Part shown: positions 834-21,262 of the stretch, one piece after another
Layout of the letters: every line of letters begins with the position of its first letter
Position numbering within the stretch: position 1 is the first letter of the stretch
Source of the DNA: Acidobacteriaceae bacterium
GTDB lineage: Bacteria; Acidobacteriota; Terriglobia; Terriglobales; Acidobacteriaceae
Direction: 5' to 3'
DNA: 64,000 nt
NCBI GenBank assembly: GCA_003134655.1
Contig: PLBY01000060.1
Location: 14,580-78,579, forward strand
The notes under the pieces: generated by a model
Told to the model about the DNA's origin: nothing
Databases searched by the model: none
The model's input: only the letters and a program-made list of their open reading frames with translations
Position numbers and translations under genes: made by a program

Positions 834-3554
834 ATGCCAGCCCCCAGCGCAAACAAAGTCGTCGTTGTCACCGGGGACATCATGATTGATTGGAACCTTG
901 CCCGGAGTCGCGGGCCGGAAGCCAAGGGCCCTGCATGGCTTCAGGACGTGTGCTCGCACGTTTCCTGGCAGCCGGGAGGTGCTCCGCTGCTGGCCAACAT
1001 AATCGAGGCGATCGTTCCCGAAGGCTATTCGGTGCGGCAGCCAGCCGTTCCTTCCAAGAGGCGAGATCCACAACCGACGGCTGTTTCTCCCGAAGATCCC
1101 AACTATCACCATTCGCATGCCTCATGGATGCTCTGTCCGTACACGACTGACAAAGACGATAAGAAGGCCCCCCAGTCTTGGCGCATCCATGAATTTCTGG
1201 GCATTAATTGCTGCGGTCCGAGAGTTGCGCCAAAGGACTGGGAGCGGGTGCAAAACGATGATCCCGACGCAAGCCTGGTCGTTCTTGATGACGCTGCTCT
1301 TGGCTTCAATAGTGAAGAGGCACTCTGGCCGATCGCTCTCACTGCAGAGGGCAAGACTCCATGGGTTCTGCTGAAAATGGCTCGGATAGGCCAAGGCACT
1401 CTCCGGAAAAAGCTGATCGAGAAACACGCCGACCGCTTGGTCGTTGTCATTGGAGTGAATGATTTACGTCATCGAAATGCGCAAATCAGCCGGGAACTTT
1501 CCTGGGAGCGTACAGCACAAGACCTCGCATGGGAGATCAGCTACAACCCGGTTCTCAGTGAACTATCGCGATGCGCCAAAGTGATCGTTCCTTTCTATGG
1601 CGACGGAGCTTTCTTGTATACGAAGGCAAATGAAGGAGGAGCCCCCAGTTGCCGGCTGCTCTTTGACCGCAACGGAATCGAGGGAGTTTGGGAACGCAGT
1701 CGCCCTGGACGCATGATGGGACTTACCTCAACCCTAACCGCAGCAGTGGCCCGCGAAATCCTGCTTTGCCCGGACAAGCCTGATCTTGAGCATGGGGTGC
1801 AAGTCGGCCTTCATGCCGCCCGGGTGCTCCACAGCGAGGGCTATGGAGAACGCGGCGCCTCTGCCCAGGAGGTCAAACTCGTTCTCCCGATCGAGAAAGT
1901 CTCCGGGGCTATCAAGAACGGTATCGAGAAACCACAGTTCTCATCCGCGAACATCAGAATACCCGGCTTGATTTACAAGGACGCCGTTACACCCGGAGAA
2001 AGTCGACTTTGGACCATCCTTGACGAGGTCTACCCCGGCAAGGCCGACGAGAAAGCGCGGGAGGTGCTTGAAAAGGGCCTTGAAAAGGCTCTTGAGGATG
2101 TTCCGATTGGCAGGTTCAGCAAGCTCATCACGGTGGATCGACAGGAAATCGAGGGTCTGCGTACGATTGGCGCTCTCATCAGCGAGTATGCCGATCAGAC
2201 GCGCCCCAAGCGACCGCTGTCGGTAGCGGTCTTTGGTCCCCCCGGTGCCGGGAAATCGTTCGGCATCAAGCAACTCGCTAATTCGATTCGGCCCGACGAG
2301 ATCAAAGTACTCGAGTTCAACATGTCGCAGTTCCAGTCGACTGCGGAGCTTGTTTCAGCCTTTCACCAGGTGCGTGACGCCGGACTGAATCAGAAGCTGC
2401 CACTGGTCTTCTGGGATGAGTTCGACTCGCCGATGGGCGATACCACGTTCGGATGGCTGCGTCACTTTCTTGCACCAATGCAGGACGGAGTCTTCCAGGA
2501 TGGTGGCATGGATCATCCCGTTGGCCGTGCCATCTTTGTTTTCGCCGGCGGCACCAGTAGCCGCTACCAGGACTTTGGCCAGCCGAAAAACGAAGATGAG
2601 AAGAAACGATTTGAAACGCTGAAGGTTCCGGATTTTATCAGCCGGTTGAAGGGCTTCCTGAACGTGCTCGGCCCCAACCCGCACATCTCCACGGCCCATG
2701 ACCCTTTCTATGTGCTACGCCGCGCCATCCTGTTTCGCTCGATGTTGAGCGACTACGAAGGGATCATGAAGAACAAGGATCCCCAGATCGACGACGGACT
2801 TGTCAACGCCTTTCTTTACACTCGTATGTATTGGCACGGAGCACGTTCGATGGAATCGATCATCGCGTGCAGCCGACTGAGCGGTAGGAACAAGTTTGAA
2901 CGCTCCGCCCTTCCGCCCGAGGATCAACTTGAGCTTCATGTTGACGCGAGAGATTTTGTGGCAAAGATCCACAAACTAGAACTCAGCGGCGAACTGCTGG
3001 AGAAGCTCGCGATCGCCGCTCATCAGCATTTTTGCAGAGGCTTGGAAGCTGCACGATGGACGTACGGGAAGGTTGAAAACAAGAAAACCAAGAAGCACCG
3101 CAACCTGAAACCGTATGGTGAACTCACGGAGGAGCTCCGCGAACAGAATCGGGGACAAGTGAGGGATATCCCGACCAAGCTGGCTGCGGTCGGCTATGAT
3201 ATGGTTCCCGGTCGAACCGGTTCACATGAGGTGAGAAAATTTCCAGATGAGGTCGTCGAGGAACTCGCCATCATGGAGCACGCCCGGTGGATGCGTCAAA
3301 AGATCGCAGCGGGTTGGCGATACGGCAAGGTTAAGAAAGTCAAAGATGATGTAAGGAAATTACATTCCTGCATGGTCCCGTGGTCCGAAGAAGATCGCCC
3401 AAACTACAAGGAGTACAAAGACCTGATTGGCCCGAGTCCAAAGGTCCTCTCGCCCGAGGAAAAGAAGAAGGATCTCGACGCCATTCGCAGCATTCCAGAG
3501 ATCCTTGCACTTGCAGGGTACATGGTTGTTGGACCTGAGGACAAGGGAGCGTAG
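834..3554 (+). CDS. AAA+ ATPase with kinase-like N-terminal domain and two C-terminal RyR domains
   Basis: A 906-residue protein. Residues 1-345 start with VVVVTGDIMIDWNLA and have a GDGAFLY-like segment near 255. This resembles a degenerate PfkB/ribokinase fold, a tentative call because the anion-hole GAGD motif is missing. Residues 440-700 are an AAA+ ATPase: Walker A GPPGAGKS at 468-475, Walker B LVFWDEFD with D528/E529, a sensor-like FVFAGGTSS and an arginine in FISRLKG. Residues about 723-792 and 806-898 are two RyR domains, seen in the EHARWMRQ...GWRYGK...LHSCMVPW...I..ILALAGYMV pattern. RyR domains are known from ryanodine receptors and from bacterial proteins in conflict loci. A Shine-Dalgarno AAGGAG lies 11 nt before the ATG. 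It is first in module A. The homologue at 14628-17344 is frameshifted. Function inferred: ATP-driven sensor or signalling protein. Confidence 0.8.
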   Translation: MPAPSANKVVVVTGDIMIDWNLARSRGPEAKGPAWLQDVCSHVSWQPGGAPLLANIIEAIVPEGYSVRQPAVPSKRRDPQPTAVSPEDPNYHHSHASWMLCPYTTDKDDKKAPQSWRIHEFLGINCCGPRVAPKDWERVQNDDPDASLVVLDDAALGFNSEEALWPIALTAEGKTPWVLLKMARIGQGTLRKKLIEKHADRLVVVIGVNDLRHRNAQISRELSWERTAQDLAWEISYNPVLSELSRCAKVIVPFYGDGAFLYTKANEGGAPSCRLLFDRNGIEGVWERSRPGRMMGLTSTLTAAVAREILLCPDKPDLEHGVQVGLHAARVLHSEGYGERGASAQEVKLVLPIEKVSGAIKNGIEKPQFSSANIRIPGLIYKDAVTPGESRLWTILDEVYPGKADEKAREVLEKGLEKALEDVPIGRFSKLITVDRQEIEGLRTIGALISEYADQTRPKRPLSVAVFGPPGAGKSFGIKQLANSIRPDEIKVLEFNMSQFQSTAELVSAFHQVRDAGLNQKLPLVFWDEFDSPMGDTTFGWLRHFLAPMQDGVFQDGGMDHPVGRAIFVFAGGTSSRYQDFGQPKNEDEKKRFETLKVPDFISRLKGFLNVLGPNPHISTAHDPFYVLRRAILFRSMLSDYEGIMKNKDPQIDDGLVNAFLYTRMYWHGARSMESIIACSRLSGRNKFERSALPPEDQLELHVDARDFVAKIHKLELSGELLEKLAIAAHQHFCRGLEAARWTYGKVENKKTKKHRNLKPYGELTEELREQNRGQVRDIPTKLAAVGYDMVPGRTGSHEVRKFPDEVVEELAIMEHARWMRQKIAAGWRYGKVKKVKDDVRKLHSCMVPWSEEDRPNYKEYKDLIGPSPKVLSPEEKKKDLDAIRSIPEILALAGYMVVGPEDKGA

Positions 3555-3720
3555 GCGACCGCTGCACCGCCGGTGAAAGGCGGTTTGATGCCCCGCCGCG
3601 AGAAGACGGGCCTACGTAAAACCGAGTGGGTCCGAACTGGGAATCCAGCGTGCCGGGGTGAAATGACCGATCTGCTGTGCTATAAAGCAGGCGACTGCCA
3701 ATGGCTGGGAGCAGCTGAAT

Positions 3721-5469
3721 ATGCATACGGATACCGGACTAACCGGTGAGGTGCGCTCTAGTTGGGTATGGTGGGCAACTGGGCTGGTCGCGATTGTAGC
3801 CTTTGGTTGCGGATTCGTCGGCATGTGGGAATACGAGCAGGCAGTTCGTCCTGGTGGCAGTGTGGATCCGTGGTCGGTTACATATCATACCCTTCAGTTG
3901 TTCATTCTCCACGCGCCACATCTGGACGGCCCGATTCCATGGTCGCTTCATGTCGGACGCCTGCTCGGGGCCATACCGGTTTGCGTAGCAGCACTAATTG
4001 GCTTCTTCAAGGTTTTCCCGGACGAATTGAATCTGCTGCGACTGAGATTGCCTTGGGCTCGAGGTCATGTGGTTATTTGCGGGCTGGGTGAGGTAGGAGT
4101 GCAGCTTGCCATTCAAGGACGCCGGCGCAAGAAGCGTATGGTCGCAATCGAAAGTCAGTGCCCGCAAGCAACGCGACAGTTAATGCGCCAGCATGGTGTG
4201 CTTGTCCTCGATGGGGACGCCACGGAGGAAAGTCAGCTCGAAGGCGCCCGGATTCAACGAGCCGAGTTTGTAGTGGCTTCGTGCCATGACGATCAGACAA
4301 ACATTGCGCTTGCGGCCGCGATCGGCAAATTGGCGGAATCGGCGAGAGGCCGTCATAACGCCCTCATCTGTCGAACGTTGATTGAAAATCCGGATACACG
4401 ACGGCTTTTGTCGAGCGCTTCATTTTCCAGTGACGATTCGCGATATAGGGTGAATTTCACCGACCTCGATCAACATGCGGTCGCCGCGCGCCAAGCCCTC
4501 CGGATGTACCCCTTGGACTTCCAGCCGATCCGCCAGCATGACGACAACTTGGTCCGGCTCATAGTGGTGGGATTCGGGATGGCTGGTCAGAGCCTTGCCT
4601 TGCACGCCGCTCAAATTGGGCATTTCGCAAACGAGGTCGGAAAAGGGAGACGGCTTCTGCTCAGTATTGCTGATCCGACCGACAGCCTCCTGAATGAGTT
4701 CAAGACCCGTTATCCAAATCTGGAACGTGTCTGCGACGTCGAATTGATTGTGTTACCCCTCTCAGCATCTGATCAAGTCAACAAACTGGCAGAACTCTGT
4801 CCGGATGGAGAGCCCGCGGGCAGCCTGGTTACTTACGCATTCTGCTGTGATGATGAACTTGGTGACGAAAGAAATTTCAGGTTGGGCACTGAGCTCCATG
4901 AGAAGGTCAGGTGCCGCGCGGCTCAAATCCTGATTCGCCAGACTTCACGAAAGGGATTTTCCGCGGTTCTGTCGGGCGGTCGAATATATCCATTCGGCAT
5001 GATTGAAGACGTGTTCGGCTGGGATGTCCTGCTCCATGAAAGCGAAGACAAGCTCGCACGTGCTCTGCATAAAGTCTACAAGCTCAAGAACCCCTCGGAG
5101 CCGCATCCGGAATGGGACGAACTCGGTGAAGGATACAGGGATTCAAACCGCCAGGCGGCAGATCACACTTCGATCAAGCTTCGTGCGCTTGGCTACCACG
5201 CAGAACAGTTGACAAAGGAGAAACCGCGCATCGTGTCTTTTGCAGATTCCGAGATTGAACTGTTGGCTCAAATGGAACACATTCGTTGGTGTGCCGAGCG
5301 ATACTTGGCGGGTTGGATGTACGGAGAACAAACAGATCGTCAGCGGAAGATAAATAGAAACCTTGTAGCTTGGGACAAACTGCTCCCCACAGAGCAAAAG
5401 AAGGACCCAGAACAGATCAACACAATTTCGGAAGCCCTATACAGCATCGGGCTGGGTATCTATCGATAG
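3721..5469 (+). CDS. Two-TM channel-like protein with two RCK/TrkA-N domains and C-terminal RyR domain
   Basis: A 582-residue protein. Hydrophobic segments lie near 14-36 and 80-98, with a pore-helix-like stretch between them (YHTLQLFILHAPHLDG) that lacks the TVGYG potassium filter. Two Rossmann domains follow: VVICGLGEVGVQLA at 117-130 and LIVVGFGMAGQSLA at about 280-293, each with GxGxxG and typical of RCK/TrkA-N ligand-gated ion transport regulators that bind NAD(H) or nucleotides. Residues 505-580 form an RyR domain (ELLAQMEHIRWCAERYLAGW, then NRNLVAWDKLLPTEQKKD). The layout is that of a membrane channel gated by a nucleotide-binding ring with an added RyR sensor. It is 166 bp downstream of the AAA+/RyR gene and probably co-transcribed. 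Ion specificity cannot be read from the sequence. Confidence 0.8.
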   Translation: MHTDTGLTGEVRSSWVWWATGLVAIVAFGCGFVGMWEYEQAVRPGGSVDPWSVTYHTLQLFILHAPHLDGPIPWSLHVGRLLGAIPVCVAALIGFFKVFPDELNLLRLRLPWARGHVVICGLGEVGVQLAIQGRRRKKRMVAIESQCPQATRQLMRQHGVLVLDGDATEESQLEGARIQRAEFVVASCHDDQTNIALAAAIGKLAESARGRHNALICRTLIENPDTRRLLSSASFSSDDSRYRVNFTDLDQHAVAARQALRMYPLDFQPIRQHDDNLVRLIVVGFGMAGQSLALHAAQIGHFANEVGKGRRLLLSIADPTDSLLNEFKTRYPNLERVCDVELIVLPLSASDQVNKLAELCPDGEPAGSLVTYAFCCDDELGDERNFRLGTELHEKVRCRAAQILIRQTSRKGFSAVLSGGRIYPFGMIEDVFGWDVLLHESEDKLARALHKVYKLKNPSEPHPEWDELGEGYRDSNRQAADHTSIKLRALGYHAEQLTKEKPRIVSFADSEIELLAQMEHIRWCAERYLAGWMYGEQTDRQRKINRNLVAWDKLLPTEQKKDPEQINTISEALYSIGLGIYR

Positions 5470-5570
5470 GATTAGGGAAAACATCATGGAGTACAAAACA
5501 TGCTCACGTTCCGCACGCGAACCGAGCAGGTGCGCATCGTCAAATGCTACCATCCAAATATGACAGCGTT

Positions 5571-5861
5571 ATGAGTTACCATCCCTCACCAATCGACACC
5601 TCTGCAGTCTCGCTGCCGCCGGAGTTGGCCGAGCTTACCGAGCGCCTCGCTGCGAACTCACACGACCTGTGGGCGGCACAGCGGCTGGCGGAAGGCTGGT
5701 CCTATGGCCCGTATCGGGACGACAAGAACAAACAACATCCGTGCCTTGTACCTTACGACCGATTACCGGAAGAGGAAAAGGAATACGACCGTATCACCGC
5801 TCTGGGTACTTTGAAAGCAATTCTGAGCCTTGGATACAGAATCGCTCCGCCGGGGCGCTGA
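5571..5861 (+). CDS. Stand-alone RyR domain protein
   Basis: I place the start at the ATG giving a 96-residue protein. An upstream extension in frame would overlap the previous gene by 100 bp and has no domain-like sequence. Almost the entire protein is a single RyR domain: ELAELTERLAANSHDLWAAQ, a GWSYGPYRDD tryptophan-glycine turn, the HPCLVPYDRLPEEEKEYDR core, and a TLKAILSLGYRI end. This is the closest match in the window to the canonical RyR consensus. There is no membrane segment or signal peptide. It lies 101 bp after the channel-like RyR gene and 65 bp before the TIR-like gene, all on the same strand. It could be a soluble ligand-binding partner or adaptor of the larger RyR proteins; that role is inferred. 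Confidence 0.75.
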   Translation: MSYHPSPIDTSAVSLPPELAELTERLAANSHDLWAAQRLAEGWSYGPYRDDKNKQHPCLVPYDRLPEEEKEYDRITALGTLKAILSLGYRIAPPGR

Positions 5862-5926
5862 CAGAAACTCGATCTCGATCTTTGCGTACAAAATGATTGG
5901 CTCAAAGAGTTGGAAACAGACATGTG

Positions 5927-6889
5927 ATGGCCACCGGCAGTCAATTTCCAGGAACCCCCACCACGCCATCCACCGTCTTCTTGATGATTCGCTTCCGCGC
6001 ATCTAAAGAGTACGAGGTGATCGCCAGCGTTCTGTCAGAGATCTTAGACCAATACTCCCTTACTCTGGTCCGAGCGGATTACAAGCAGCAGCATGACGAG
6101 CTTTGGAGCTACGTCCGGCACTGGATGGATACCTCGCAGTATGGGATCGCGGTTTTCGAACACATTGCAGAGCCGACGCTGGGCCCGAATGTCAGCCTTG
6201 AACTCGGGTACATGCTCGCGAAGGGAAAGCGTTGTCTCCTGCTGAAGGAGAAAAGTGTTCCCTCGCTTCAGGCCGATCTTGTTGGACACATCTGTCGCGA
6301 ATTCGACCGCGATCAGATTTCAAAGAGCCTTACTATTGAGGTCCGGAATTGGCTTCGTGATTTGGGAATTGCGAAGAGAAAAGATGAGAAGGTGCTCGCA
6401 TTCGCGAGCTATGGTGGAACTTGCCGCGACCCGATGGCCAAGGCCATCGCACTGAAACTCATCAAAGAGAGACCACCAGATTATCGCCTAAGAGTGGAGG
6501 CAGGTGCGCTCTTTCAACCCAGTGCCGCGACCGCCGCCTATGCCGCTCGGGAAGCTATCAGAGAGATGTTCGGTGAAGAACTGCTTGCTGACTATCAAGT
6601 CAAGCGGATGACGGCAGACAGAATCGATGAAGCGGACTTGATCCTAGTGATGGCGGCTTCGCTGCTTCAGAAGAAACTACTTCCGGAAGAGAAGACATTC
6701 GTCCTCAGACCCTTTTTGGGTCTGCAGGGTGAGGTCGAAGACCCGTTCCCAGATGGGACAGACGTCGAAACCCTCAAGAGATACCGGGCCTGTGTCGGCG
6801 AATTGCGTGACATTCTGAGCGCAAATTGGGACCGATTGGTAGCTTTCCTTCGACCCGTGGCTTCGACAAATGACGATAATCCGCGATGA
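5927..6889 (+). CDS. TIR-like domain fused to low-molecular-weight phosphatase-like domain lacking the catalytic Cys
   Basis: About 320 residues from the ATG at 5927 (a TTG at 5897 is possible). The N-terminal 130 residues have a TIR/deoxyribosyltransferase-like flavodoxin fold: STVFLMIRF at the start, then YGIAVFEHI and NVSLELGYMLAKGKRCLLL, as in TIR-like domains that cleave or bind nucleotides. The C-terminal 165 residues match low-molecular-weight protein tyrosine phosphatases (LMW-PTP): FASYGGTCRDPMAKA aligns with the FVCxGNxCRSPMAE P-loop, and EVEDPFPDG aligns with the general-acid DP loop. The nucleophilic cysteine is replaced by serine (AGC, 6407-6409), while the P-loop arginine and acid aspartate remain. 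This suggests a phospho-ligand-binding pseudo-enzyme. The gene ends 9 nt before the STAND gene, pointing to one operon. Confidence 0.65.
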   Translation: MATGSQFPGTPTTPSTVFLMIRFRASKEYEVIASVLSEILDQYSLTLVRADYKQQHDELWSYVRHWMDTSQYGIAVFEHIAEPTLGPNVSLELGYMLAKGKRCLLLKEKSVPSLQADLVGHICREFDRDQISKSLTIEVRNWLRDLGIAKRKDEKVLAFASYGGTCRDPMAKAIALKLIKERPPDYRLRVEAGALFQPSAATAAYAAREAIREMFGEELLADYQVKRMTADRIDEADLILVMAASLLQKKLLPEEKTFVLRPFLGLQGEVEDPFPDGTDVETLKRYRACVGELRDILSANWDRLVAFLRPVASTNDDNPR

Positions 6890-6898
6890 GATAACTCA

Positions 6899-9800
6899 AT
6901 GCCGACCGCAACACGCACATTCCGGGTTTTTGTCAGCTCCACCTTCGAGGACTTGAAGGCCGAGCGCGACGCGCTGCAGCGCGACGTGTTTCCGAAGCTG
7001 CGCCAACTCTGTGAAGAGAGCGGCGCACGCTTCCAGGCCATTGACCTGCGCTGGGGTGTGCGCGACGAAGCTGCGCTCGACCAGAAGACCATGGAGATCT
7101 GCCTGCGCGAGATCGATCGTTGCCAGCGGACTGGGGTCAAGCCGAACTTCATCGTTCTGCTCGGAGACCGTTACGGTTGGCGACCCTTGCCAGCACGGAT
7201 CGAGGCGCAAGAATTCGAGAGGGTGCGCGATCGTGTTACGGATGCCCTCGACCAGCAACTGCTAGGCGCGTGGTACCAGCGGGAAAATAACGTAGTTCCT
7301 CCGGAATACTCGCTGAAGGCGCGCAGCGGAGAATGGACGGAATCTGAAAGTTGGCAGGAGTTAGAAGAGCGCCTGCACCGGATTCTTCGCGAGGCGGCAC
7401 AGGCGGCCGAATTATCCGCCCAAGCGATGGTGAAATATGAAGCCTCCGCCACCCACCAAGAAATCTTGAAGGGGCTCGGGGCGACATCCGAGGACCGCCG
7501 GCACGTGTTCGCGTTCTGCCGCAAGGTGCCGGACCATGACTGCGACTCCGATCTCCTCAATCTCAAGCACTTCCTCGGTGACCAGCTTCCTGAGGACAAC
7601 ATCCTGCCCTACGACTCTGGAGATTTGGCGCGGCTCTGCCAAGATGTCGAGCAGAAACTGCGGGCGGTGATTGAGAACGAAGCAGCCAGTTTCGAGTCGC
7701 GTTCGCCACTTGCACTGGAAATCGAGGCACACGACAGCTTCGCACGCGAACGGGCTCTGGTGTTCGGCCGGCAGCAGGTTTTGAATTCCATCAGGGAGTA
7801 CATCAGCTCGGACAGCGACCGTCCACTCGTACTGCGTGGCGCATCGGGTTCGGGCAAGTCCGCAGTAATGGCTCAGGCTTCAGAGCAGGCATTGGTGGCT
7901 CTCCCCTCCGCCGTTGTGATCCGTCGCTTCATCGGAGCTTCACCTGAATCGTCGAGTGGACTCACGTTGCTCCGCGGTTTTTTGGAACAGATCGGAGCGG
8001 CATATGGCGCCACCGGAGAACTGCCCGCGGACTTTAACGGAATGGTGCGTGTCTATCGTGAGCGTCTTGCCTTGGCTACTGCAGAACGCCCCCTGGTGGT
8101 CTTCATCGATGCCTTGGACCAACTAGGGGAGGATGATCCCGCACACTCGCTCACATGGCTGGTCGGATCGCTTTCACCCTATTGCCGCGTCGTACTCTCA
8201 ACTACCGATGTTGCCCCGGCGCTCAGCAAGTGCCGGCTGCTTGAACTTGAAGTCCTGCCTCCAACGGATGCTGCCGCAGCGCTTGACCATTGGCTCAGTA
8301 CAGCCCGCCAGCAACTCCAGCCAGCACAGCGGGAGAAGCTTCTGGCGGCATTCAACCGCTGTGGACTTCCGCTGTATCTAAGATTGGCCTTCGAAGAGGC
8401 ACGAGGCTGGGCATCGTACCTGCCATTGGAGAGCTGTCTGCTCGGCGACGGCGTGGAAGGCATAATCGACACGATGCTCGACCGCCTTTCGCTAGGGGCG
8501 AATCATGGCTTACTTTTGGTTAGCCGCAGTCTCGGCTATCTGGCAACGTCCCGATATGGACTGACCGAGGACGAAATCCTGGACGTGCTCTCGGCGGACG
8601 ATGAGGTATGGCAAGACTTCGAACAGCGCGCTCATCACACGCCATCCGAGCGTCGGTTGCCTGTCATCTTCTGGTCGCGTCTCTACCTCGATCTGGAACC
8701 CTATCTAACGGAGCGCATCGTTCCAGGTGGCACAGTGATCAGTTTCTACCACCGGCAACTAGCAGAACGGGCAACCGAACGATTTCTTGCCGACGCAAAC
8801 GGCCAAGCGCGTCACAAAACGCTCGCGCGGTACTTTGCGAAGCAGCACTTGTGGTTTGATAGCGCACAAACTCAGCCGAATGGCCGTAAGGCGGTGGAGT
8901 TGGTCCATCAGCAAGCTCGCGGCGAGTTGGTCGATGATGCCGCAGCGCTGCTTACAGGCCTTCCCTGGATCATCTTGAAGTGTCAACTGGGGCTTGTCTT
9001 CGATCTCCAGCAGGACTATCGAGATATCCTTGCCGTCCTTCCGGAAGCGCAAGAGCAGTTCCGTGAGGAGCGCGGGCGGCAGGCGGGACTTCATCGCTGG
9101 ACAAAGGAGATCACCCACTATGCGCGCCAGTGGAGCGAACGCCGCGATAGGCTGGCGAGAGGTGAGGCGATCACAGAGTTGGCGCTGCCATTCCCGGAAC
9201 CTCCTGGTCTTTGCCGTATGTGGACAGAGGAGGAGATCGAAGCTGAGCGTCGCCGGGTCACAGAGGACCCAACCCGACTAGATCGGATGCAGGCGTTCGC
9301 CAGCTTCGTAATGCAGGAATGTTATGCGCTAATAGAGTTTGGTATGAGGCCGAAATTTGTGGAGCAGCACGCATTCAACTACGCACCACGTGGTACAGTG
9401 CATGATTCCGCTGTACGCGGCCTCTCTACTTTGGGGGCGCCGGTGCTGACAAGACATTGGAAGTCTACGGACCGCTACAATCCGATGCCGGCACTCCTGT
9501 CTAGGATGGAAGGACACACAGACCTCGTTAATAGTGTGAGCGTAACGCCAGATGGCGCATGCGCGGTATCCGCCAGTGGTGACGGAACCGTGCGAGTGTG
9601 GAATCTGCAGACAGGAGCCTGCCTTCGGGTGCTGGAGGTTGACAATCAGCTCGAGAGCGCGACTGTGACACCGGACGGCCGGTGCGCGGTCACGGCGGCG
9701 AGCTCATTTTATTCGCGCCAAGTGGTTACGTGGGACCTGGAAACCGGCGCTTGCCTGCGGGAGTCAGAAAAGAGCCGGCCTGCCGACTGTGTCAGCGTGA

Positions 9801-11440
9801 CGCCGGATAGGCGGCGGGCGGTCTCGGTCGGTCACAACGACCGAGACCTCCGATTGTGGGACTTAGACACGGGTCACTGCTTAGGAGTGCTGCAAGGGCA
9901 CACTGATGAGGTGAAGAGCGTATGCATAACTCCGAATTTTCGGCGTGCAGTTTCTGGGGGTTGGGACAAGACGTTGCGCGTCTGGGAACTTGAAACGGGT
10001 GCGTGCCTGCACATCCTGGAAGGGCACTCAGATATGGTGTTAAGCGTGAGCATCACCCCCGATGGTCGACGCGCGGTCTCTGGGAGTGCTGACCATACGC
10101 TCCGAGTGTGGGATCTCGAGAGTGGTGCGTGCGTGCGTGTACTTGAAGGACACTCGGAGGATGTCCGGAGTGTGAGCCTAACACCCGATGGCCGACGCGC
10201 GGTTTCGGGCAGTGATGACCGTTCAGTGCGTGTTTGGGATCTGGAAGCGGGAGCGTGTCTGCGGAGACTGGAAGGGCACTCAGAACGAGTTTGGAGTGTG
10301 GCGGTAACTGCGGACGGTCGGCGTGCGATATCAGCTGGCGGGCACGACAGAACCGTTCGGGTGTGGGATTTGGAAAGGGGAGCATGCTTGCCGGTACCTG
10401 AGGGTCACACGACTGGCATCGGCATCGTGAGCACAATTCAGGGAGGCTGGCTTGCACTCTCGGTTGATTGGGAAGGTTCGATGCGAGTATGGGATTTGCG
10501 GACCGGAGCACGCGGGCGCTTGCTGCCGGTCCGTATAATGCCGCTTGAATTTAGCGTAACGTCCGATGGAAAGCGCGCGACGGAAGCTGAGATCACTGGA
10601 GAAGTGAAGGTTTGGGACCTGGAAACTGGGGCATGCCTCCGCGTTCTGAAAGCGCACCCGTTCGGTCATACAGTTGCCACTATTACGCCGGACGGTCGAC
10701 ACGCGGTTTCCGCCGGTAAAGACTACACAGTGCGAGTGTGGGACCTGAAGACGGGCGCGTGCCTACATGAGCTCGAGGGCCCTGAAGATACTATCTGGTC
10801 TGTGAGCCTAACACAGGACTGTCGGCGGGTGGTGTCGGGGAGTTCTGAGTTGCGCATCTGGCATCTGAACACCGGGGCCTGCCTGCGGGTTCGCGAACCA
10901 CATACTGGTGGCATAGGAACCGTGAGCATAACGTCGGACGGAACGCGAGCGGTGTCGGAGAGCCACTGGGACACGAAATTGCGCGTGTGGGACTTAGAGA
11001 CAGGAGTATGCCTGCGCGTAGTCGACGGAGACAGACCAGACGCTTTCTCCAGTGTGGTCCTGACACCAGATAATCGGTTTGCGGTCGCGGCTGGTAGAAA
11101 TGACTATGCGGTGCGGGTGTGGGACTTGGAGACTGGTGTGTGTGCTGCTGTTCTTCGCCTGCCAGCGTCCGGCACGGTCGCGCTATCCCGTGCATTTGCC
11201 CGCGTAGTAGTCGGTACCTGGGCTGGCGAAGTGCTCCAGTTCGATCCACGAGGGATGACGTGGGCCGCCGACACTGAATCCAAGAACCATCCTGACCTTG
11301 CCGGTGGCGAATCTGTCCTGGCGACCGTGGCGGAAGAGCGCGGAGCGGGCGATGTGCAGCGTTGGTGGCGCCAGACCTCCGACCGGATACGCTACATAAA
11401 GACGCGCCTTAGCTCGCTTATACGCCGCTCAACAACATGA
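6899..11440 (+). CDS. DUF4062-NACHT-WD40 STAND NTPase (14 WD40 blades)
   Basis: A 1513-residue protein. Residues 6-110 are DUF4062 (FRVFVSSTFEDLKAERDAL, RWGVRDEAA, FIVLLGDRYGWRP), a TIR-related fold used at the N-terminus of STAND proteins. The NTPase has Walker A GASGSGKS at 314-321 and Walker B VVFIDALDQL with D404/D407, then the winged-helix/helical arm to about 860. From about 868 to 1460 I count 13 full WD40 blades plus one terminal blade, each with the TPDGRRAVS...VRVWDLETGACLRVLEGH pattern. That is enough for two seven-bladed propellers. DUF4062-NACHT-WD40 is also the order in eukaryotic TEP1. Such STAND proteins usually bind a trigger through the repeats and oligomerise through the NTPase. 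It is last in module A. The effector here would be DUF4062 or the adjacent RyR/TIR-like proteins (inference). Confidence 0.85.
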   Translation: MPTATRTFRVFVSSTFEDLKAERDALQRDVFPKLRQLCEESGARFQAIDLRWGVRDEAALDQKTMEICLREIDRCQRTGVKPNFIVLLGDRYGWRPLPARIEAQEFERVRDRVTDALDQQLLGAWYQRENNVVPPEYSLKARSGEWTESESWQELEERLHRILREAAQAAELSAQAMVKYEASATHQEILKGLGATSEDRRHVFAFCRKVPDHDCDSDLLNLKHFLGDQLPEDNILPYDSGDLARLCQDVEQKLRAVIENEAASFESRSPLALEIEAHDSFARERALVFGRQQVLNSIREYISSDSDRPLVLRGASGSGKSAVMAQASEQALVALPSAVVIRRFIGASPESSSGLTLLRGFLEQIGAAYGATGELPADFNGMVRVYRERLALATAERPLVVFIDALDQLGEDDPAHSLTWLVGSLSPYCRVVLSTTDVAPALSKCRLLELEVLPPTDAAAALDHWLSTARQQLQPAQREKLLAAFNRCGLPLYLRLAFEEARGWASYLPLESCLLGDGVEGIIDTMLDRLSLGANHGLLLVSRSLGYLATSRYGLTEDEILDVLSADDEVWQDFEQRAHHTPSERRLPVIFWSRLYLDLEPYLTERIVPGGTVISFYHRQLAERATERFLADANGQARHKTLARYFAKQHLWFDSAQTQPNGRKAVELVHQQARGELVDDAAALLTGLPWIILKCQLGLVFDLQQDYRDILAVLPEAQEQFREERGRQAGLHRWTKEITHYARQWSERRDRLARGEAITELALPFPEPPGLCRMWTEEEIEAERRRVTEDPTRLDRMQAFASFVMQECYALIEFGMRPKFVEQHAFNYAPRGTVHDSAVRGLSTLGAPVLTRHWKSTDRYNPMPALLSRMEGHTDLVNSVSVTPDGACAVSASGDGTVRVWNLQTGACLRVLEVDNQLESATVTPDGRCAVTAASSFYSRQVVTWDLETGACLRESEKSRPADCVSVTPDRRRAVSVGHNDRDLRLWDLDTGHCLGVLQGHTDEVKSVCITPNFRRAVSGGWDKTLRVWELETGACLHILEGHSDMVLSVSITPDGRRAVSGSADHTLRVWDLESGACVRVLEGHSEDVRSVSLTPDGRRAVSGSDDRSVRVWDLEAGACLRRLEGHSERVWSVAVTADGRRAISAGGHDRTVRVWDLERGACLPVPEGHTTGIGIVSTIQGGWLALSVDWEGSMRVWDLRTGARGRLLPVRIMPLEFSVTSDGKRATEAEITGEVKVWDLETGACLRVLKAHPFGHTVATITPDGRHAVSAGKDYTVRVWDLKTGACLHELEGPEDTIWSVSLTQDCRRVVSGSSELRIWHLNTGACLRVREPHTGGIGTVSITSDGTRAVSESHWDTKLRVWDLETGVCLRVVDGDRPDAFSSVVLTPDNRFAVAAGRNDYAVRVWDLETGVCAAVLRLPASGTVALSRAFARVVVGTWAGEVLQFDPRGMTWAADTESKNHPDLAGGESVLATVAEERGAGDVQRWWRQTSDRIRYIKTRLSSLIRRSTT

Positions 11441-12600: not shown

Positions 12601-12607
12601 TGGGAGA

Positions 12608-13384: not shown

Positions 13385-13527
13385 CAATCCACATTCTAGC
13401 GTCGGAGTCCGAGGGCGGTCATTGGCTGGGAAGCTTTGTGGTTTATCTTGTCACAAAGCAAGGGATTTCAAGCTAGTTGCCGCTTCAGGTTGACCGCTCC
13501 GCGCCTTCTCTTAGATGATTGTGACGC

Positions 13528-13743: not shown

Positions 13744-13767
13744 CCTCCCCGCGAATGGACGTGAAAA

Positions 13768-14627: not shown

Positions 14628-15926
14628 GTGCCGCAGACAGGTGGAATACCAACAATGAGCACGGAAGCGAGTGCCAAGACCATTGTTGTCAGCGGGGACT
14701 TCACGCTGGATTGGAATCTCGCGCGCAGCCGAGCGCTGGAGGCGCAAAGGGGTGTTTGGGAGCCGGAGGTTTGTTCCCGGCTGGAGTGGCAGCGTGGCGG
14801 GGCCGCGCTGCTTGCTGATTTGGTCGAAAGTGTTGCGGCGCAAGTCCGCGACCGTGCTGTTTTCGAAATCCGCCAAGCCGATACGCCGCGGCGCACCGGC
14901 AAGGCCGAAGATATTCAGATCGGGCCCGAGGACCCGCGATTCCATCATTCTTATGCCTCCTGGATGCCTTTTCCATTTGCCGCCAAAGCCCCCGATAAGG
15001 AAAAGCCGGCGTGGCGTGTTGCTGAATTCCTGGGTATTAACCGATGCTCCGATAGAGAGGCAGATACAAAGTGGGCGCGGGTGGTGAATGATGACTCTCG
15101 GGCGCAGATCGTTGTGCTCGATGACGCAGACCTGGGTTTCCGCTCGAAACGCGACCTTTGGCCCGCAGCCCTGACAGAGTTCGGCAGCCACCCCTGGGTG
15201 CTGGTGAAGATGAGTCGTCCGGTTGCACGAGGAGAACTCTGGGATCATCTTCGCGCGCACCACGCCGAGAAACTCATTGCCGTCATGATGGTGAATGACC
15301 TACGCCTCACGGAAGTGCAGGTAAGTCACGAGCTTTCCTGGGAGCGAACGGCCCAGGACTTGGTTTGGGAGGTCATCTACAACCGCGCTCTGCGTAGCCT
15401 GGCGCCGTGCGCCCACGTGGTAATTTCTTTCAACGCGGCGGGCGCATTCCTATACTCACGAGACAGCGAAGGCGAACTGCCATGCCGGTTACTGTTCGAT
15501 CCCGAAGTGGTCGAGGGCATGTGGGAGCAGGGTTACCCAGGGCGGATGGTGGGCTATAGTTCCTGCCTCACTGCTGGTATCGCGAAGGAAGTGATGCTTG
15601 CTCCGGAGAAGCCCAATATTCGACAGGGAATCCGGGCAGGACTTTGGGCGCTCCGCTGCCTGCATCGCGAAGGCTATGGTGAGCGGGGCGTCTCGGCAAG
15701 CGAGGTCAACCTCGAGTTTCCCGTCGGTAACGTCGTCAACGCACTGACCAAGAGCGACAGCCCGTTCCAGGAAACGGTCGTGCCGATGCGCACCGGCAAC
15801 AAGTATTGGACGATCCTCGGGGATCGATGCCCTGGCAATCTCGAAGAGGTTGCGCGCAACGTGGTTTTGCAAGGGCCGGAAAACGTACTTAAGGAGTCCC
15901 ACTCGGACGGTTCGGAGCCCTCCTGA
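14628..15926 (+). CDS. N-terminal half of AAA+/RyR protein (kinase-like domain), split from its C-terminal half by a frameshift
   Basis: 432 residues homologous to residues 1-425 of the protein at 834-3554: TIVVSGDFTLDWNLARSR, FHHSYASWMPF, LSWERTAQDLVWEVIYN, GRMVGYSSCLTAGIAKEVML and LHREGYGERG. The domain resembles a degenerate PfkB/ribokinase fold (tentative). GTG at 14628 has GGAGG five nt upstream; ATG at 14655 is the alternative. The frame ends NVLKESHSDGSEPS, whereas the paralogue continues into VPIGRF...TVDRQEIE. The matching VPLGRFGALLTVDRQEIE is present in the -1 frame from about 15896, so one base was lost, or a -1 shift occurs, near 15893-15897. This and the next gene were once one protein. 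Confidence 0.75.
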   Translation: MPQTGGIPTMSTEASAKTIVVSGDFTLDWNLARSRALEAQRGVWEPEVCSRLEWQRGGAALLADLVESVAAQVRDRAVFEIRQADTPRRTGKAEDIQIGPEDPRFHHSYASWMPFPFAAKAPDKEKPAWRVAEFLGINRCSDREADTKWARVVNDDSRAQIVVLDDADLGFRSKRDLWPAALTEFGSHPWVLVKMSRPVARGELWDHLRAHHAEKLIAVMMVNDLRLTEVQVSHELSWERTAQDLVWEVIYNRALRSLAPCAHVVISFNAAGAFLYSRDSEGELPCRLLFDPEVVEGMWEQGYPGRMVGYSSCLTAGIAKEVMLAPEKPNIRQGIRAGLWALRCLHREGYGERGVSASEVNLEFPVGNVVNALTKSDSPFQETVVPMRTGNKYWTILGDRCPGNLEEVARNVVLQGPENVLKESHSDGSEPS

Positions 15927-15928
15927 CG

Positions 15929-17344
15929 GTGGACAGGCAAGAGATCGAGAGCTTGCGCAGCATTCGCTCCCTAGTCAGCGAATATGTGGCTCAGCCACAC
16001 CCCAAGCGACCCTTGTCGATCGCCGTGTTTGGTCCCCCAGGATCGGGGAAGTCGTTTGGAATTACACAGCTTGCCCTAGCGCTCCGGCCGGGTGAGATCG
16101 AACCCAAAGAATTCAACCTGTCCCAACTCCGGTCTACCGACGAGTTACTGTATGCTTTCCACGAGGTACGCGACATCGGCCTTGGCGGAAAGATTCCTCT
16201 GGTGTTTTGGGACGAGTTCGACGGCGATTACCAAGGCACTTACGGCTGGTTGCGGTACTTTCTCGCGCCGATGCAGGATGGCAAGTTCCAACACGGGAAC
16301 CTCACCCATCCGATCGGCAGGGCGATCTTCGTATTTGCGGGGGGAACCAGCGAGACGCTGGATAACTTCGGCAAGAACGTAAGCGAGGACGAAGCACGCG
16401 CGGCCAAAGTCCCGGATTTTGTCAGCCGCCTCAAAGGCTATCTCAATGTACTTGGCCCCAACCCGCTCGCGGGAGGAAACGATCCTTATTATTTACTGCG
16501 GCGTGCCATCCTACTGCGCTCGATGCTCTCGCGGGATGCGAAACACCTGCTGCGTAACGGCGAGTTGCAGATCGATTCCGGGGTGCTACGGGCCCTGTTA
16601 CTGACATGGAAATACAAGCACGGAGCGCGGTCGATGGAGTCCGTCATCGCCATGAGCCAACTCGAAGGAAAAACTCGGTTTGAGCGTTCCAGTCTGCCGA
16701 CCAAGGCGCAACTGGATTTACACGTGGACGGACAGGACTTCCGGGCGCTGGTTCAACAGTTCCAAGTTGACGACGAGGTTCTGGAGAAGCTGGCAAGGGC
16801 TGTTCACAAGATCTATTGCGAGGAGCAAAAGGGTCTCGGCTGGAAATACGGACCTAGAAAGAACGAAGACACTAAGGAAACCCCATCCCTCGTGGAGTTC
16901 GACCAGCTTCCGGAGGAAGAGAAGGAGCAGAACCGCGGACAGGCACGCGATATCCCGGTTAAATTGGTTCTTGCTGGATGCTACATGGTCTCGGAAGTTG
17001 AAGGTGAGAAGGCTTTCGAGTTTCCACCCGATGTGCTGGAGGAGTTGGCGTCTAGAGAGCACACGCGCTGGATGCGTCAGAAGGCAAGGGACAAATGGCG
17101 CCATGCTCCCGAGACCGACAAAGCGAAGAAGCTGCACAAGTGCTTGCTGCCCTGGCGCAAGTGGGACCTAGCCCCGTATGCGGACTTTGTAGAGTGTCTC
17201 GGAGACCGGGAGCTTCCCGAAGATGAAAAGGAGAAAGATCGAACCGCAGTTCGCAAGATTGCCGCAATTCTGAAGGACACCGGTTACACAATCGTTGGGG
17301 TGCGAAGTGAAGCCGGACGGGTCCGGGCCGCTATGCAGAAGTGA
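15929..17344 (+). CDS. C-terminal half of AAA+/RyR protein: AAA+ ATPase with two RyR domains
   Basis: 471 residues matching residues 435-900 of the module A protein. Walker A GPPGSGKS is at 35-42, Walker B LVFWDEFD with D95/E96, a sensor-like FVFAGGTSE, and an arginine in FVSRLKGYLN. RyR domains lie at about 283-355 (GWKYGPRKNED, LVEFDQLPEEEKEQNR) and 366-457 (EELASREHTRWMRQK, LHKCLLPW, ILKDTGYTIVGV). GTG at 15929 is 3 nt after the upstream stop and could allow coupled re-initiation, but no Shine-Dalgarno lies at a normal distance. The shared reading frame upstream of the GTG argues that the full-length form is ancestral. It is followed 156 bp later by the STAND-TPR gene. Confidence 0.75.
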   Translation: MDRQEIESLRSIRSLVSEYVAQPHPKRPLSIAVFGPPGSGKSFGITQLALALRPGEIEPKEFNLSQLRSTDELLYAFHEVRDIGLGGKIPLVFWDEFDGDYQGTYGWLRYFLAPMQDGKFQHGNLTHPIGRAIFVFAGGTSETLDNFGKNVSEDEARAAKVPDFVSRLKGYLNVLGPNPLAGGNDPYYLLRRAILLRSMLSRDAKHLLRNGELQIDSGVLRALLLTWKYKHGARSMESVIAMSQLEGKTRFERSSLPTKAQLDLHVDGQDFRALVQQFQVDDEVLEKLARAVHKIYCEEQKGLGWKYGPRKNEDTKETPSLVEFDQLPEEEKEQNRGQARDIPVKLVLAGCYMVSEVEGEKAFEFPPDVLEELASREHTRWMRQKARDKWRHAPETDKAKKLHKCLLPWRKWDLAPYADFVECLGDRELPEDEKEKDRTAVRKIAAILKDTGYTIVGVRSEAGRVRAAMQK

Positions 17345-17500
17345 ACTTGCCGCGATTAGTGTTACCGGGCATCGCTAGCTTGCAGACATAGTGGTCGTTG
17401 AGGCCGTGGGTTAGCGCCACCCAGCGCATCGCGGCCGGCGGCAGGGCCTCGTTGTGCTGCTGGTGGACGTTATGCTTGTTCGGCGACAGGTGAGAAACCT

Positions 17501-20500
17501 ATGCCTGACGGAATTAGTGCAATCCCTTCCGTTGTTGAGCGTCACGAGATCCGTGTGTTCATCTCCTCGACCTTCCGCGACATGCAGGAGGAGCGTGAGG
17601 AACTGGTGAAGCAAATCTTCCCGCAATTGCGCCGCCTGTGCGAGAGCCGCGGTGTCACCTGGGGGGAGGTGGACCTGCGCTGGGGCGTCCCAGACGAAGC
17701 CAAGGCCGAAGGGAAGGTCTTGCCTCTGTGCCTAGCGGAGATCGAGCACTGCCGGCCTTATTTCATCGGTCTACTGGGCGAGCGCTACGGCTGGGTGCCA
17801 GAGGAGATTCCGCAAGAACTTCTTGACGCGCAGCCTTGGCTCAACGAGCACCGCAAGCAATCCGTGACGGCTCTCGAAATCCTCCACGGCGTGTTGCGGA
17901 ATCCGCAGATGGCGGAGCACGCGTTCTTCTACTTTCGCGACCCGGCCTATGCCGCCGCGCACACGGGTTTCACAGAAGAGGACGCCGACCGGCGCGAGCG
18001 ACTGGCGGAACTGAAGGACGCGATCCGAAAGAGCGGCTTCCCGGTCAAGGAAAACTTCGCCACGCCGAAGCAGTTGGGCGAGTGGGTGCTGCGCGACATC
18101 ACCGCCGTCATCGAGAGCCTCTATCCGGAGAAGAGCGTTCCCGACCTGCTGGACCGCGACGCGGCCGATCATGAAGCGTATGCGACCAGCCGCCGATCGG
18201 TCTACATCGGCCGCAAGGAGAACATCGAGCGGCTTGACGCCCATGCTGCGGGCGACGGGCCACCGCTCGTGGTGCTGGGAGAATCGGGCGGAGGCAAATC
18301 GGCGCTGCTGGCCAACTGGACTTACCGCTGGAGCGAAGAACACCCCGAAACGCCGGTTCTGGTGCACTTCATCGGTGCTGCGCCCGACAGCGTGAACTGG
18401 ATGGCAATGCTGCGGCGGTTGCTGGGCGAGTTCCGCCGCAAATTCGGTATTCAGATTGAGATTCCGGACCAACCCGACGCCCTGCGCATGGCTTTCGCCA
18501 ATGCACTGCACATGGTCGCGGCGCACAGGCACGTGGTGCTGGTGCTCGACGCTCTGAACCAGATTGAGGACCGAGACGGCGCGCCGGACTTGGTCTGGCT
18601 GCCGCCAGCCATCCCAGCGAACGTGCGTATGGTCGTTTCGACGCTCCCCGGACAGCCTTTGGATGACCTGAAGAAACGCGGCTGGCCTGTGCTGGGCGTG
18701 GAGCCACTCACAACGCCCGAGCGCAAAGAATTGATTGTCAAATACCTGAATCGGTACTCCAAGGCGTTGAGCCCGAGGACTGTTCACTGCATCGCCGTCG
18801 CGCCGCAAACAGGAAATGGCCTGTATCTCTGCACGCTGCTGAATGAACTGCGACAGTTCGGCAGTTACGAGAGCTTGAACGAACGCATCGATTGGTACCT
18901 GCAAGCGGCGAGCCCGGTCGAGCTTTACAGCAAAGTCATCGAACGCTGGGAGCAGGATTACGGCAAGCCTGACCCGGCGTGCGAGAACGTTGTCCGCGAG
19001 AGCATGGTGCGCCTGTGGGCGGCGCGCCGCGGTCTTTCCGAGACAGAGTTGCTGGACTCGCTGGGAACGGAAGGCTCACCGCTGCCGCGAGCGGTGTGGA
19101 GTCCGCTGTATCTGGCTGCGGGCGATGCTTTGGTGAACCGGGGCGGCCTGCTGACTTTCGCGCACGACTTCCTGCGCGAGGCAGTCCGCGAGGCGTACCT
19201 GCCCACCACCGAAGACAAACAAAGCACACACCGAACGTTGGCCAACTATTTTCATGACCAGCCGCAAGGTCCGCGCCAATTGGATGAACTGCCTTGGCAA
19301 TGGCAGGAATCTGCTGAATGGCAAAACTTGGCGGACCTGCTGACGCAACTCGGCTTCTTCGGTGCGCTCTGGGAGAAGGACGAGTTCGAGGTTAAGGCGT
19401 ACTGGGCCCAGATCGAGAATCATTCACAGCTGCGCATACGCGAAGCGTACGGTCGAGTAGTAACCGGACAAACCGGCAGCCCCAGTCATATGTTGCGTGT
19501 CTCCACGTTATTCGACGACACAGGCCATAAGGAGGAGGCTTTTTCCGTCAGAAATGACCTGGTAACTCATTACCAGCAAACTGGTAACCGCCCCAGGCTC
19601 GCAGTGGCGCTCGGCGCCCAGGCCGTCAGTCTCCAGAACCGAGGTCAACTGGAAGAGGCGATGGCTATGCATAGGGAAGAAGAGGGGATCTATAGGGAAC
19701 TTAATGACAGAAGGGGGCTTTCGCGCAGCCTGTGCAACCAAAGCAGTATTCTCGGTCTCACGGGAGATCTTCATAGTGCGATGACTCTGGCCAGGGATGC
19801 GGAGCAGATCAGCCGAAGGGCCGGTGACAAGGAAATCCTGCAAGCCAGTCTCAGCCGTCAGGGGACAATCCTCGGAACATGGGGCAAATTGGATGAGGCA
19901 ATGGCTCTTTACAAGGAAGGGGAGAGAATCTGCCGGGAACTGGGTGACAAAGGAGGGCTTTGTGGGAGCATCGGAAAACAGGCTGCAATTCTGAAGGATA
20001 AAGGAGACCTTGCCGGATCGATAAGTCTGCTCAAGGAGCAGGCGATTATCTCCCGCGAACTGGGGGACAAAGGGATGCTCTCGGCCAGCCTTGGCGGCCA
20101 GGCGATGGCGCTCTATGCCTTGGGTGAAGTTGATGCGGCCATTGCACTGATGAACGAGAGCATCCAAATCTGTAGGGGGCTCGGGAATCCAGGAGCGCTG
20201 GCAATTTCCCTCGGAAACCTAGCAGTGGCCCTAAAAAACCTTGGGAGGCTGGATGAGGCACTGGCTCTTCACAGGGAAGAGGAGAAAATCTGCCGCGAGC
20301 TGGGTTACAAGTCAGCGCTTACGAATTGCCTCGGAAACCTGGGGGTTATCCTGAAGAACCGAGGCGACTTGATTGGGGCGACGGCTTTGCTTAAAGAGCA
20401 GGAGGTTATCTGCCGCGAACTGGGTGACGAGGCCGCATTATCAGGATGTCTGCTCAATCAGGCAAATGTCTTGCTCGTCCAGGGCAATGAAGATGTGGCA

Positions 20501-21262
20501 TTCGGGCTATATAAGAAGGCTGAGGAGATCTTCCGAGAGCTGGGGAACGAATCAGGGCTCTCGCTCAGCCTCGGCAACGAGGCGGTAATCCTGCGGAACC
20601 GGGGAGACCTGGATGGGTCCATGGCGCTGCTAAGGGAGCAGGAGCGGATCTGTCGGGCGCTAGGAAACAAGGCCGGCCTGACACTCAGCCTTGGCAACCA
20701 GGCGGTGATCCTGCGGATGCGGGGAGACCTGGATGGGGCTATGGCACTGCACAAGGAAGAGGAATGCATTTGTCGCGAATTGGGGGATCAGGCTCGGCTT
20801 TCGTTCAGTCTCGGCAACCAAGGGTTGATTTGGGGAACTCGCGGGGAACTGGATAAAGCAATGGCTCTGCTTGAGGAAGAAGAGAGAATTTGCCGACAAC
20901 TGGGTCGCATGCGGGAATTGGCCAACTCACTGCTAATACAAGCTGTGATATCGGCCCGTCAGCCTGCTCGGGAAGCCCGAGCAGTGCCCCTCCTGAAAGA
21001 GGCAAGCACGATCGCAAAGAGGATCGGCTTCCGTGCATTGCAGAAAGAGATAGAACAAATTCTGGGTCCGGGGGGAACTGAGGGGCGTTCTCGATCTGGG
21101 GCGCCCGCGAAATCGCAAGTCTCGTACCCACCCCATGACGCCAATGCAATCGGATACCTCAGAGGGAATTACGGGCGGGACGTAGCTCGTTGGAAGGCAC
21201 TGCCCTGGTGGAAACGGCTCATGAGCAGGAAACCGGAGCCCCCAAATCCGGATTATTCATGA
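17501..21262 (+). CDS. DUF4062-NACHT-TPR STAND NTPase
   Basis: A 1253-residue protein. Residues 13-110 are DUF4062 (IRVFISSTFRDMQEEREELV, VDLRWGVPDEA, FIGLLGERYGWVP). The NTPase has Walker A GESGGGKS at 260-267 and Walker B VVLVLDALNQI near 345-355, followed by winged-helix and helical parts to about 650. From about 690 to 1150 there are 11-12 TPR-type repeats of 40 residues with the pattern GDLDGAMALLKEQERICRELG...SLGNQAVILR. Several are very similar to each other, suggesting recent expansion. The NACHT-TPR layout resembles kinesin-light-chain-like STAND sensors and nephrocystin-3. The start is supported by AGGTGAG seven nt before the ATG. The first 140 bp of its conserved region reappears as a broken copy at 24537. 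Confidence 0.85.
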   Translation: MPDGISAIPSVVERHEIRVFISSTFRDMQEEREELVKQIFPQLRRLCESRGVTWGEVDLRWGVPDEAKAEGKVLPLCLAEIEHCRPYFIGLLGERYGWVPEEIPQELLDAQPWLNEHRKQSVTALEILHGVLRNPQMAEHAFFYFRDPAYAAAHTGFTEEDADRRERLAELKDAIRKSGFPVKENFATPKQLGEWVLRDITAVIESLYPEKSVPDLLDRDAADHEAYATSRRSVYIGRKENIERLDAHAAGDGPPLVVLGESGGGKSALLANWTYRWSEEHPETPVLVHFIGAAPDSVNWMAMLRRLLGEFRRKFGIQIEIPDQPDALRMAFANALHMVAAHRHVVLVLDALNQIEDRDGAPDLVWLPPAIPANVRMVVSTLPGQPLDDLKKRGWPVLGVEPLTTPERKELIVKYLNRYSKALSPRTVHCIAVAPQTGNGLYLCTLLNELRQFGSYESLNERIDWYLQAASPVELYSKVIERWEQDYGKPDPACENVVRESMVRLWAARRGLSETELLDSLGTEGSPLPRAVWSPLYLAAGDALVNRGGLLTFAHDFLREAVREAYLPTTEDKQSTHRTLANYFHDQPQGPRQLDELPWQWQESAEWQNLADLLTQLGFFGALWEKDEFEVKAYWAQIENHSQLRIREAYGRVVTGQTGSPSHMLRVSTLFDDTGHKEEAFSVRNDLVTHYQQTGNRPRLAVALGAQAVSLQNRGQLEEAMAMHREEEGIYRELNDRRGLSRSLCNQSSILGLTGDLHSAMTLARDAEQISRRAGDKEILQASLSRQGTILGTWGKLDEAMALYKEGERICRELGDKGGLCGSIGKQAAILKDKGDLAGSISLLKEQAIISRELGDKGMLSASLGGQAMALYALGEVDAAIALMNESIQICRGLGNPGALAISLGNLAVALKNLGRLDEALALHREEEKICRELGYKSALTNCLGNLGVILKNRGDLIGATALLKEQEVICRELGDEAALSGCLLNQANVLLVQGNEDVAFGLYKKAEEIFRELGNESGLSLSLGNEAVILRNRGDLDGSMALLREQERICRALGNKAGLTLSLGNQAVILRMRGDLDGAMALHKEEECICRELGDQARLSFSLGNQGLIWGTRGELDKAMALLEEEERICRQLGRMRELANSLLIQAVISARQPAREARAVPLLKEASTIAKRIGFRALQKEIEQILGPGGTEGRSRSGAPAKSQVSYPPHDANAIGYLRGNYGRDVARWKALPWWKRLMSRKPEPPNPDYS

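Follow-up and report, generated by a model that had tools for sequence, protein, structure and literature searches.

RyR-domain genes beside DUF4062-NACHT genes in Acidobacteriota and other microbes: a candidate NAD+-derived signalling system

A window of 64,000 nucleotides from an Acidobacteriaceae bacterium (C133:14580-78579 of an 8.0 Mb, 164-contig assembly) carries genes for RyR-domain proteins next to genes for DUF4062-NACHT proteins, and lets it be asked whether a cellular RyR domain reads the product of a neighbouring TIR-like NADase. In Thoeris, TIR makes cyclic ADP-ribose isomers, to which the SLOG-bearing ThsA responds. A SLOG receiver has a precedent in that system (PMC11204291). 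The cassette joins two recent and separate findings: one 2026 preprint describes DUF4062 as a TIR-like NADase that cleaves NAD+ (PMC13174449), and another, also of 2026, describes phage RyR proteins that bind or cut cyclic ADP-ribose, RyDEP being a glycosidase and some others sponges (PMC13232231). These three precedents lead us to favour a TIR-like NADase whose product would be read by RyR and SLOG-like partners.

Gene content of the locus

Module A comprises five plus strand genes (834 to 11440); module B has two (14628 to 21262), and its opening gene is broken (Table 1). The two-module cassette of the initial annotation was thus present, except that this opening gene of module B is split into two ORFs and that a likely further partner, the gene for a probable SLOG-2TM protein, had been overlooked. 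B1a and B1b sit in different frames; in a same-genus relative (L008) the matching stretch lies in one open frame (78% over 423 aa, 91% over 179 aa), and it differs from the window by one base in length shortly before the break, which we read as a frameshift or an assembly error, two causes that sequence cannot separate. Between the modules, SRAP-like and exonuclease III-like repair genes, named from reading the ORFs, occupy the minus strand (11896-13387). All RyR (6) and DUF4062 (7, one a weak fragment) matches of the genome fell on one contig, at 2.5-44.7 kb, a span of some 42 kb. To the left lie another two genes of the DUF4062-STAND type (L132:2474-7822 and 8385-13061), alike in build, with the aligned Glu and with repeats recognised by reading, so the island extends past the left edge of the window.

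Table 1. Features of the RyR/DUF4062 locus (window positions)
Feature	Position	Strand	Content	Basis or remark
A1	834..3554	+	N domain, AAA+ ATPase, two RyR domains, 906 aa	Pfam, Walker A
A2	3721..5469	+	two TM segments, TrkA_N/RCK, RyR tandem (home-made profile), 582 aa; channel-like	
A3	5544..5861	+	lone RyR domain	Pfam; start estimated inside ORF 5370-5861
A4	5897..6889	+	NDT/TIR-like N part (sub-threshold), LMW phosphatase-like domain	
A5	6899..11440	+	DUF4062-NACHT-WD40, 1513 aa	
B1a	14628..15926	+	N part of module B AAA+/RyR gene, cut off by frameshift	
B1b	15929..17344	+	remainder of the broken module B gene: AAA+ part (Walker A), two RyR domains	
B2	17501..21262	+	DUF4062-NACHT-TPR, 1253 aa	
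SLOG-2TM	22361..24076	-	probable SLOG domain with SLATT-like TM tail	homologues adjoin AAA+/RyR elsewhere
Third copy	25170..29744	+	DUF4062-NACHT-WD40, 1524 aa	
Short copy	29794..31227	+	DUF4062-NACHT without repeats	conserved Glu position occupied by Gly

The RyR domain (PF02026) scored above its curated cut-off in the RyR proteins of the locus. In A1, Pfam placed RyR in two stretches (1.1e-18) and AAA at 24.1 bits (cut-off 21.2), with Walker A at residue 468. B1b likewise showed RyR in two stretches (4.8e-23) and a Walker A, and its AAA models scored under the Pfam cut-off. Across 39 aligned AAA+/RyR sequences, the window's included, both Walker motifs (A and B) had invariant residues, and H816 in the second RyR was likewise invariant. 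The first genes had been called kinase-like/AAA+/double-RyR; the AAA+ and double RyR parts stood, but the kinase-like part did not pass the profile tests. A PfkB-kinase reading of the N domain, for which the order of motifs looked right, was dropped: no Pfam family matched more than one of 34 members scanned, no match was found among PDB sequences, and hhalign against eight of the genome's 11 PfkB matches (a template of these eight sequences only) returned a probability of 1.4%.

Pfam recognised TrkA_N and RyR in A2, which has two TM segments and an RCK domain. Potassium channels carry a selectivity filter of the TxGYG type. This motif occurred in none of 21 two-TM-RCK-RyR members tested, and a K+ channel identity was dropped; A2 remains channel-like in its two TM segments, RCK and RyR, but not in the filter. 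A3 was indeed a lone RyR domain (Pfam, 5.5e-35). A4, described earlier as TIR-like/pseudo-phosphatase, matched LMWPc (1.3e-7), with a residue other than Cys at what we take to be the usual Cys position of the family, but its TIR-like part gave sub-threshold matches only, and its members had no shared family above cut-off. Elsewhere (L037:13039-14052, with kin in L038 and L039), a SLOG-like domain is fused to an LMW phosphatase-like domain directly after the AAA+/RyR gene, and in L037 a TIR protein with repeats adjoins this fusion divergently.

Both modules end in DUF4062-NACHT proteins with different repeats, WD40 in A and TPR in B, as had been proposed. B2 matched DUF4062 (4.2e-14) and TPR in Pfam, and its NACHT scored just under the cut-off (26.3 against 26.7 bits). 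In A5, WD40 was among the Pfam matches listed (25 of 56 families), and the DUF4062 part was found by a home-made profile and by PF13271 at C133:21502 (window 6923). Walker A is present in A5, B2 and the third copy. SIR2 was not among the families listed for the nine window proteins searched (for A5, 25 of 56 families).

The overlooked protein is probably a SLOG-2TM, judging from its sequence. None of its SLOG or SLATT scores exceeded a curated cut-off (SLATT_1, 35.8 bits against 41; YpsA, in a homologue, 23.2 against 27.7), and the SLOG part had no significant match among solved structures. Its SLOG profile matched 11 places in 11 genomes, nine of them within 7 kb of an AAA+/RyR gene; three of the nine are members of the query alignment, and without them the count is six of eight.

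Kept residues of the DUF4062 and RyR domains

The DUF4062 domain of B2 matched the TIR chain of TEP1 (11gz) at 1.8e-24, and its Glu126 aligns with the reported catalytic Glu1008 of TEP1 if chain 11gz ends at residue 1113. The aligned residue was Glu in 31 of 35 DUF4062 rows, some of which are the same gene twice; three rows stop short of it, and one, the short copy of the window, has Gly. A5 keeps the Glu. By this alignment the DUF4062 domains here would be TIR-fold NADases with a catalytic Glu. The short copy may be a decayed or decoy paralogue. The conserved Glu is shared with Swarozyc; KpSwz (PMC13174449), however, is DUF4062 with an auxiliary domain, whereas here DUF4062 is joined to NACHT with WD40 or TPR and has RyR and SLOG-like neighbours. 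NACHT with WD40 or TPR is also found in human TEP1, NWD1, NWD2 and NPHP3.

The ligand residues reported for RyDEP are H75, W78, H100 and D117 (PMC13232231), which were placed on the RyR domains of the locus by their spacing. All four are present at identical spacing in A3 and are kept in the second RyR of A1 and of B1b; the first RyRs of A1 and B1b and both RyRs of A2 deviate, A2 having Asn in place of H100. In 81 AAA+/RyR tandems (some loci enter twice, and four proteins whose RyR matches numbered one or three were kept separate) the second RyR keeps H75 in 81/81, W78 in 79/81, H100 in 53/81 and D117 in 67/81, and in the first RyR Tyr or Phe replaces Trp in 74/81 and Asn replaces Asp in 74/81. 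The second RyRs of RCK-RyR proteins (n=20) keep H100 in 11 and D117 in 11. The lone RyR thus resembles RyDEP in PF02026 and four equally spaced ligand residues; unlike the phage counter-defence gene RyDEP, the genes here are cellular, mostly multidomain and beside NADase genes. With the animal ryanodine receptor they share a homologous domain (best RyR repeat match, to receptor 2 chain 8uxf_A, 9.2e-25), but the channel part is absent and a two-TM-RCK protein is found instead. Stretches resembling the lone RyR occur in 216 phage records, 67 of them Salmonella phages, and most of the 40 listed were annotated as hypothetical or unannotated.

The same residues bear on a different reading, in which the DUF4062-STAND protein acts alone by NAD+ depletion, as in Swarozyc, and RyR proteins, serving as a brake or for recycling, remove the ADP-ribose products or bind them up. 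KpSwz is reported to work via NAD+ depletion (PMC13174449), glycosidase and sponge activities are those reported for RyDEP and its phage relatives (PMC13232231), and, of the dyad, the His is always present in the second RyR and the Asp in most cases. However, clearing alone leaves RyR on membrane RCK and RelA/SpoT-like proteins unexplained, and the first tandem RyR mostly has Asn for Asp, though a sponge would not need this Asp. We consider this reading rather unlikely. KpSwz and TEP1 are both reported to yield ADP-ribose, with no further derivatives from the TEP1 TIR (PMC13174449), so a cyclic signal is not a given, also when the NADase product is taken, as we favour, to be read by RyR and SLOG-like partners.

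Distribution and neighbours of the RyR genes

The pairing of RyR with DUF4062 was real. Among 396 genomes sampled evenly from the phylum, Pfam models found RyR in 15 and DUF4062 in 48. Leaving out the window's genome, DUF4062 was present in 12/14 RyR genomes as against 35/381 others (Fisher 1.6e-10). It lay within 20 kb of RyR for 12/38 matches in RyR genomes, in 8/14 genomes, where 0.47 were expected (Poisson 1.7e-13, a value that overstates, because island genes cluster and the Poisson assumes uniform placement). This co-occurrence was strong. Four genomes (G124, G128, G166, G428) carry both more than 20 kb apart, G124 having six DUF4062 matches, none near RyR; G141 and G278 have RyR without DUF4062. 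The SLOG profile had no match in G105 and G124.

A search of species genomes with a profile built from ten AAA+/RyR proteins gave 413 relatives, and the best 80 were used; these come from Acidobacteriota, Chloroflexota, Chlorobiota, Bacillota, Planctomycetota, Actinomycetota, archaea and others. With home-made profiles, 78 loci (L101 and L110 omitted, as no AAA+/RyR ORF survived the overlap filter) yielded SLOG-like genes in 33, TIR in 24, two-TM-RCK-RyR in 20 and DUF4062 in 18; any partner was present in 53 and none in 25. All 33 SLOG-like genes lay within 500 bp of AAA+/RyR, six being fused to it. A six-frame recount of 80 loci gave SLOG 35, TIR 24, DUF4062 21, RCK-RyR 17 (not 20, as it skips genes starting right after the match; L070 was missed) and any partner 53, with TIR or DUF4062 in 37/80. 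Partner genes occurred in none of 20 control stretches (19.9 kb each, four genomes; 398,020 bases, about a third of the 1,273,397 in the loci). Fisher tests of loci against controls gave 1e-4 for SLOG, 0.003 for TIR, 0.006 for DUF4062 and 0.02 for RCK-RyR, with kinship ignored and with profiles whose seeds came from the window or a neighbour and whose iterations ran over the test loci, so that the recount favours the latter. Three loci (L074, L080, L091) seem to be contigs of G105, G181 and G012 and enter some counts twice. Mutual exclusion of TIR and DUF4062 was considered and rejected (both in 7 loci, TIR only in 17, DUF4062 only in 11). Of 52 TIR_2 matches in 11 genomes with the AAA+/RyR gene or fragments of it, only four were both above cut-off and within 20 kb of that gene.

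AAA+/RyR and DUF4062-STAND do co-occur, but since the closest partner is the probable SLOG protein and TIR is as frequent as DUF4062, the unit is not the fixed pair that had been supposed. In three loci, the surroundings of AAA+/RyR include RelA/SpoT-like proteins that combine RyR with a TRPM-type SLOG region scoring below threshold (L033:6493-9006, L040:10895-13429, L058:15248-17782). On the plasmid pA of Methylobacterium sp. FF17 (L167), a large SIR2-family gene lies near the AAA+/RyR gene, with transposase genes around, and one viral contig (L131, IMG/VR) holds a partial relative of the AAA+/RyR protein, in which the home-made profile did not detect RyR.

Separate systems might simply have gathered in a variable island as hitch-hikers without cooperating. 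The phylum genomes with one domain and not the other, 35/381 for DUF4062 and 2/14 for RyR, would agree with this, as would transposase-like ORFs noted upstream from reading ORFs; but the fusions of SLOG to AAA+/RyR, its close spacing in 33/78 loci and the recurrence across many phyla argue against it, and we regard mere hitch-hiking as improbable.

The AAA+/RyR gene had also been expected to keep company with STAND or defence genes. The contrary case, which the initial annotation had named as refuting, exists in part: one Bacillota clade and the Chlorobiaceae have the gene in ordinary surroundings. In loci with 8 kb on both sides, a partner was present in 17/30, namely in 17/19 outside and 0/11 inside these clades; one of the two outside exceptions, L117, has a RelA/SpoT protein with a sub-threshold SLOG match next door. 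The link is thus not obligatory. Such copies would suit a circuit that serves house-keeping or stress, keeping NAD+/ADP-ribose or ions in balance, rather than defence. PADLOC, moreover, had no model matching A1, A2, A3, A4 or the SLOG-2TM protein, and a small neighbour test with it (80 of 279 eligible neighbour proteins compared with 80 of 269 control proteins) was without clear enrichment, pointing neither way: single-member matches included type II methyltransferase/DrmMII/DruM and CARF among neighbours (among the matches listed, 25 of 64 families) and PD-T4-6, mads and others among controls (likewise, 25 of 44 families). Against such a circuit stand the patchy occurrence of the gene (4/101 genomes in the relatives search; 11/396 in the phylum, own included, two of them matching in the RyR part only), two copies on plasmids, the differing sensor repeats and a quick tree of 76 rows in which phyla are mixed. 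In this tree the partner label changed 9 times as against 20.6 in shuffles (0/500 as low), which shows only that the label clusters, not why. A house-keeping role seems to us unlikely, slightly more so than clearance by RyR.

A candidate NAD+-derived signalling pathway

Building on the observed domains, co-localisation and kept residues, we infer that the NADase and RyR proteins are joined in one pathway, as well as its signal, outputs and role in defence. A conflict-type, Thoeris-like second-messenger system derived from NAD+, with RyR among the receivers, has in our estimate about an even chance of being correct. The STAND protein (DUF4062-NACHT with WD40 or TPR; canonical TIR elsewhere) would sense a trigger via its repeats and assemble through NACHT, and the TIR-like domains thus brought together would cleave NAD+ to ADP-ribose or a cyclic isomer of it. 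The RyR and probable SLOG domains of the partners would bind this product, the outputs being membrane proteins (two-TM-RCK-RyR; SLOG-2TM) and, at certain loci, an RyR-bearing enzyme of RelA/SpoT-like type. The AAA+/RyR protein may serve as an ATP-driven hub or brake. The NADase activity of DUF4062 and the handling of cyclic ADP-ribose by RyR are carried over by analogy from the preprints on other proteins. A modular, poorly described system in which RyR reads a small ligand, as first proposed, fits these data and the strong co-occurrence, though without a fixed pair as its unit.

The locus resembles Thoeris in a predicted TIR-fold NADase with separate partner proteins, one with a probable SLOG, and differs from it in its DUF4062-STAND or TIR-WD40 sensor and in the RyR, AAA+, RCK and RelA/SpoT parts. 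A 2015 NAR survey of nucleotide-centric conflict systems reportedly treats SLOG and SLATT, and may mention RyR. Among the matches listed from openly licensed literature, no paper linked RyR to DUF4062 or SLOG, and the terms RyR and DUF4062 were absent from PMC9503650 and PMC7159879.

The recurrence of the pairing in distant microbes suggests an undescribed signalling system that uses a piece of NAD+. As a tentative extension, which we think possible but would not yet wager on, RyR domains may be receptors native to prokaryotes, reading an ADP-ribose-type immune signal that DUF4062 and TIR proteins produce. Such receptors would be spread across many bacterial phyla and occur in some archaea, their sensors interchangeable and their outputs of membrane, alarmone-enzyme and AAA+ type, and the RyR domain of animals, whose link to cyclic ADP-ribose is debated, may descend from such a receiver. 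If true, this would point to a likely cellular source of the RyR proteins of phages and would bear on the ligand of the animal RyR repeats.
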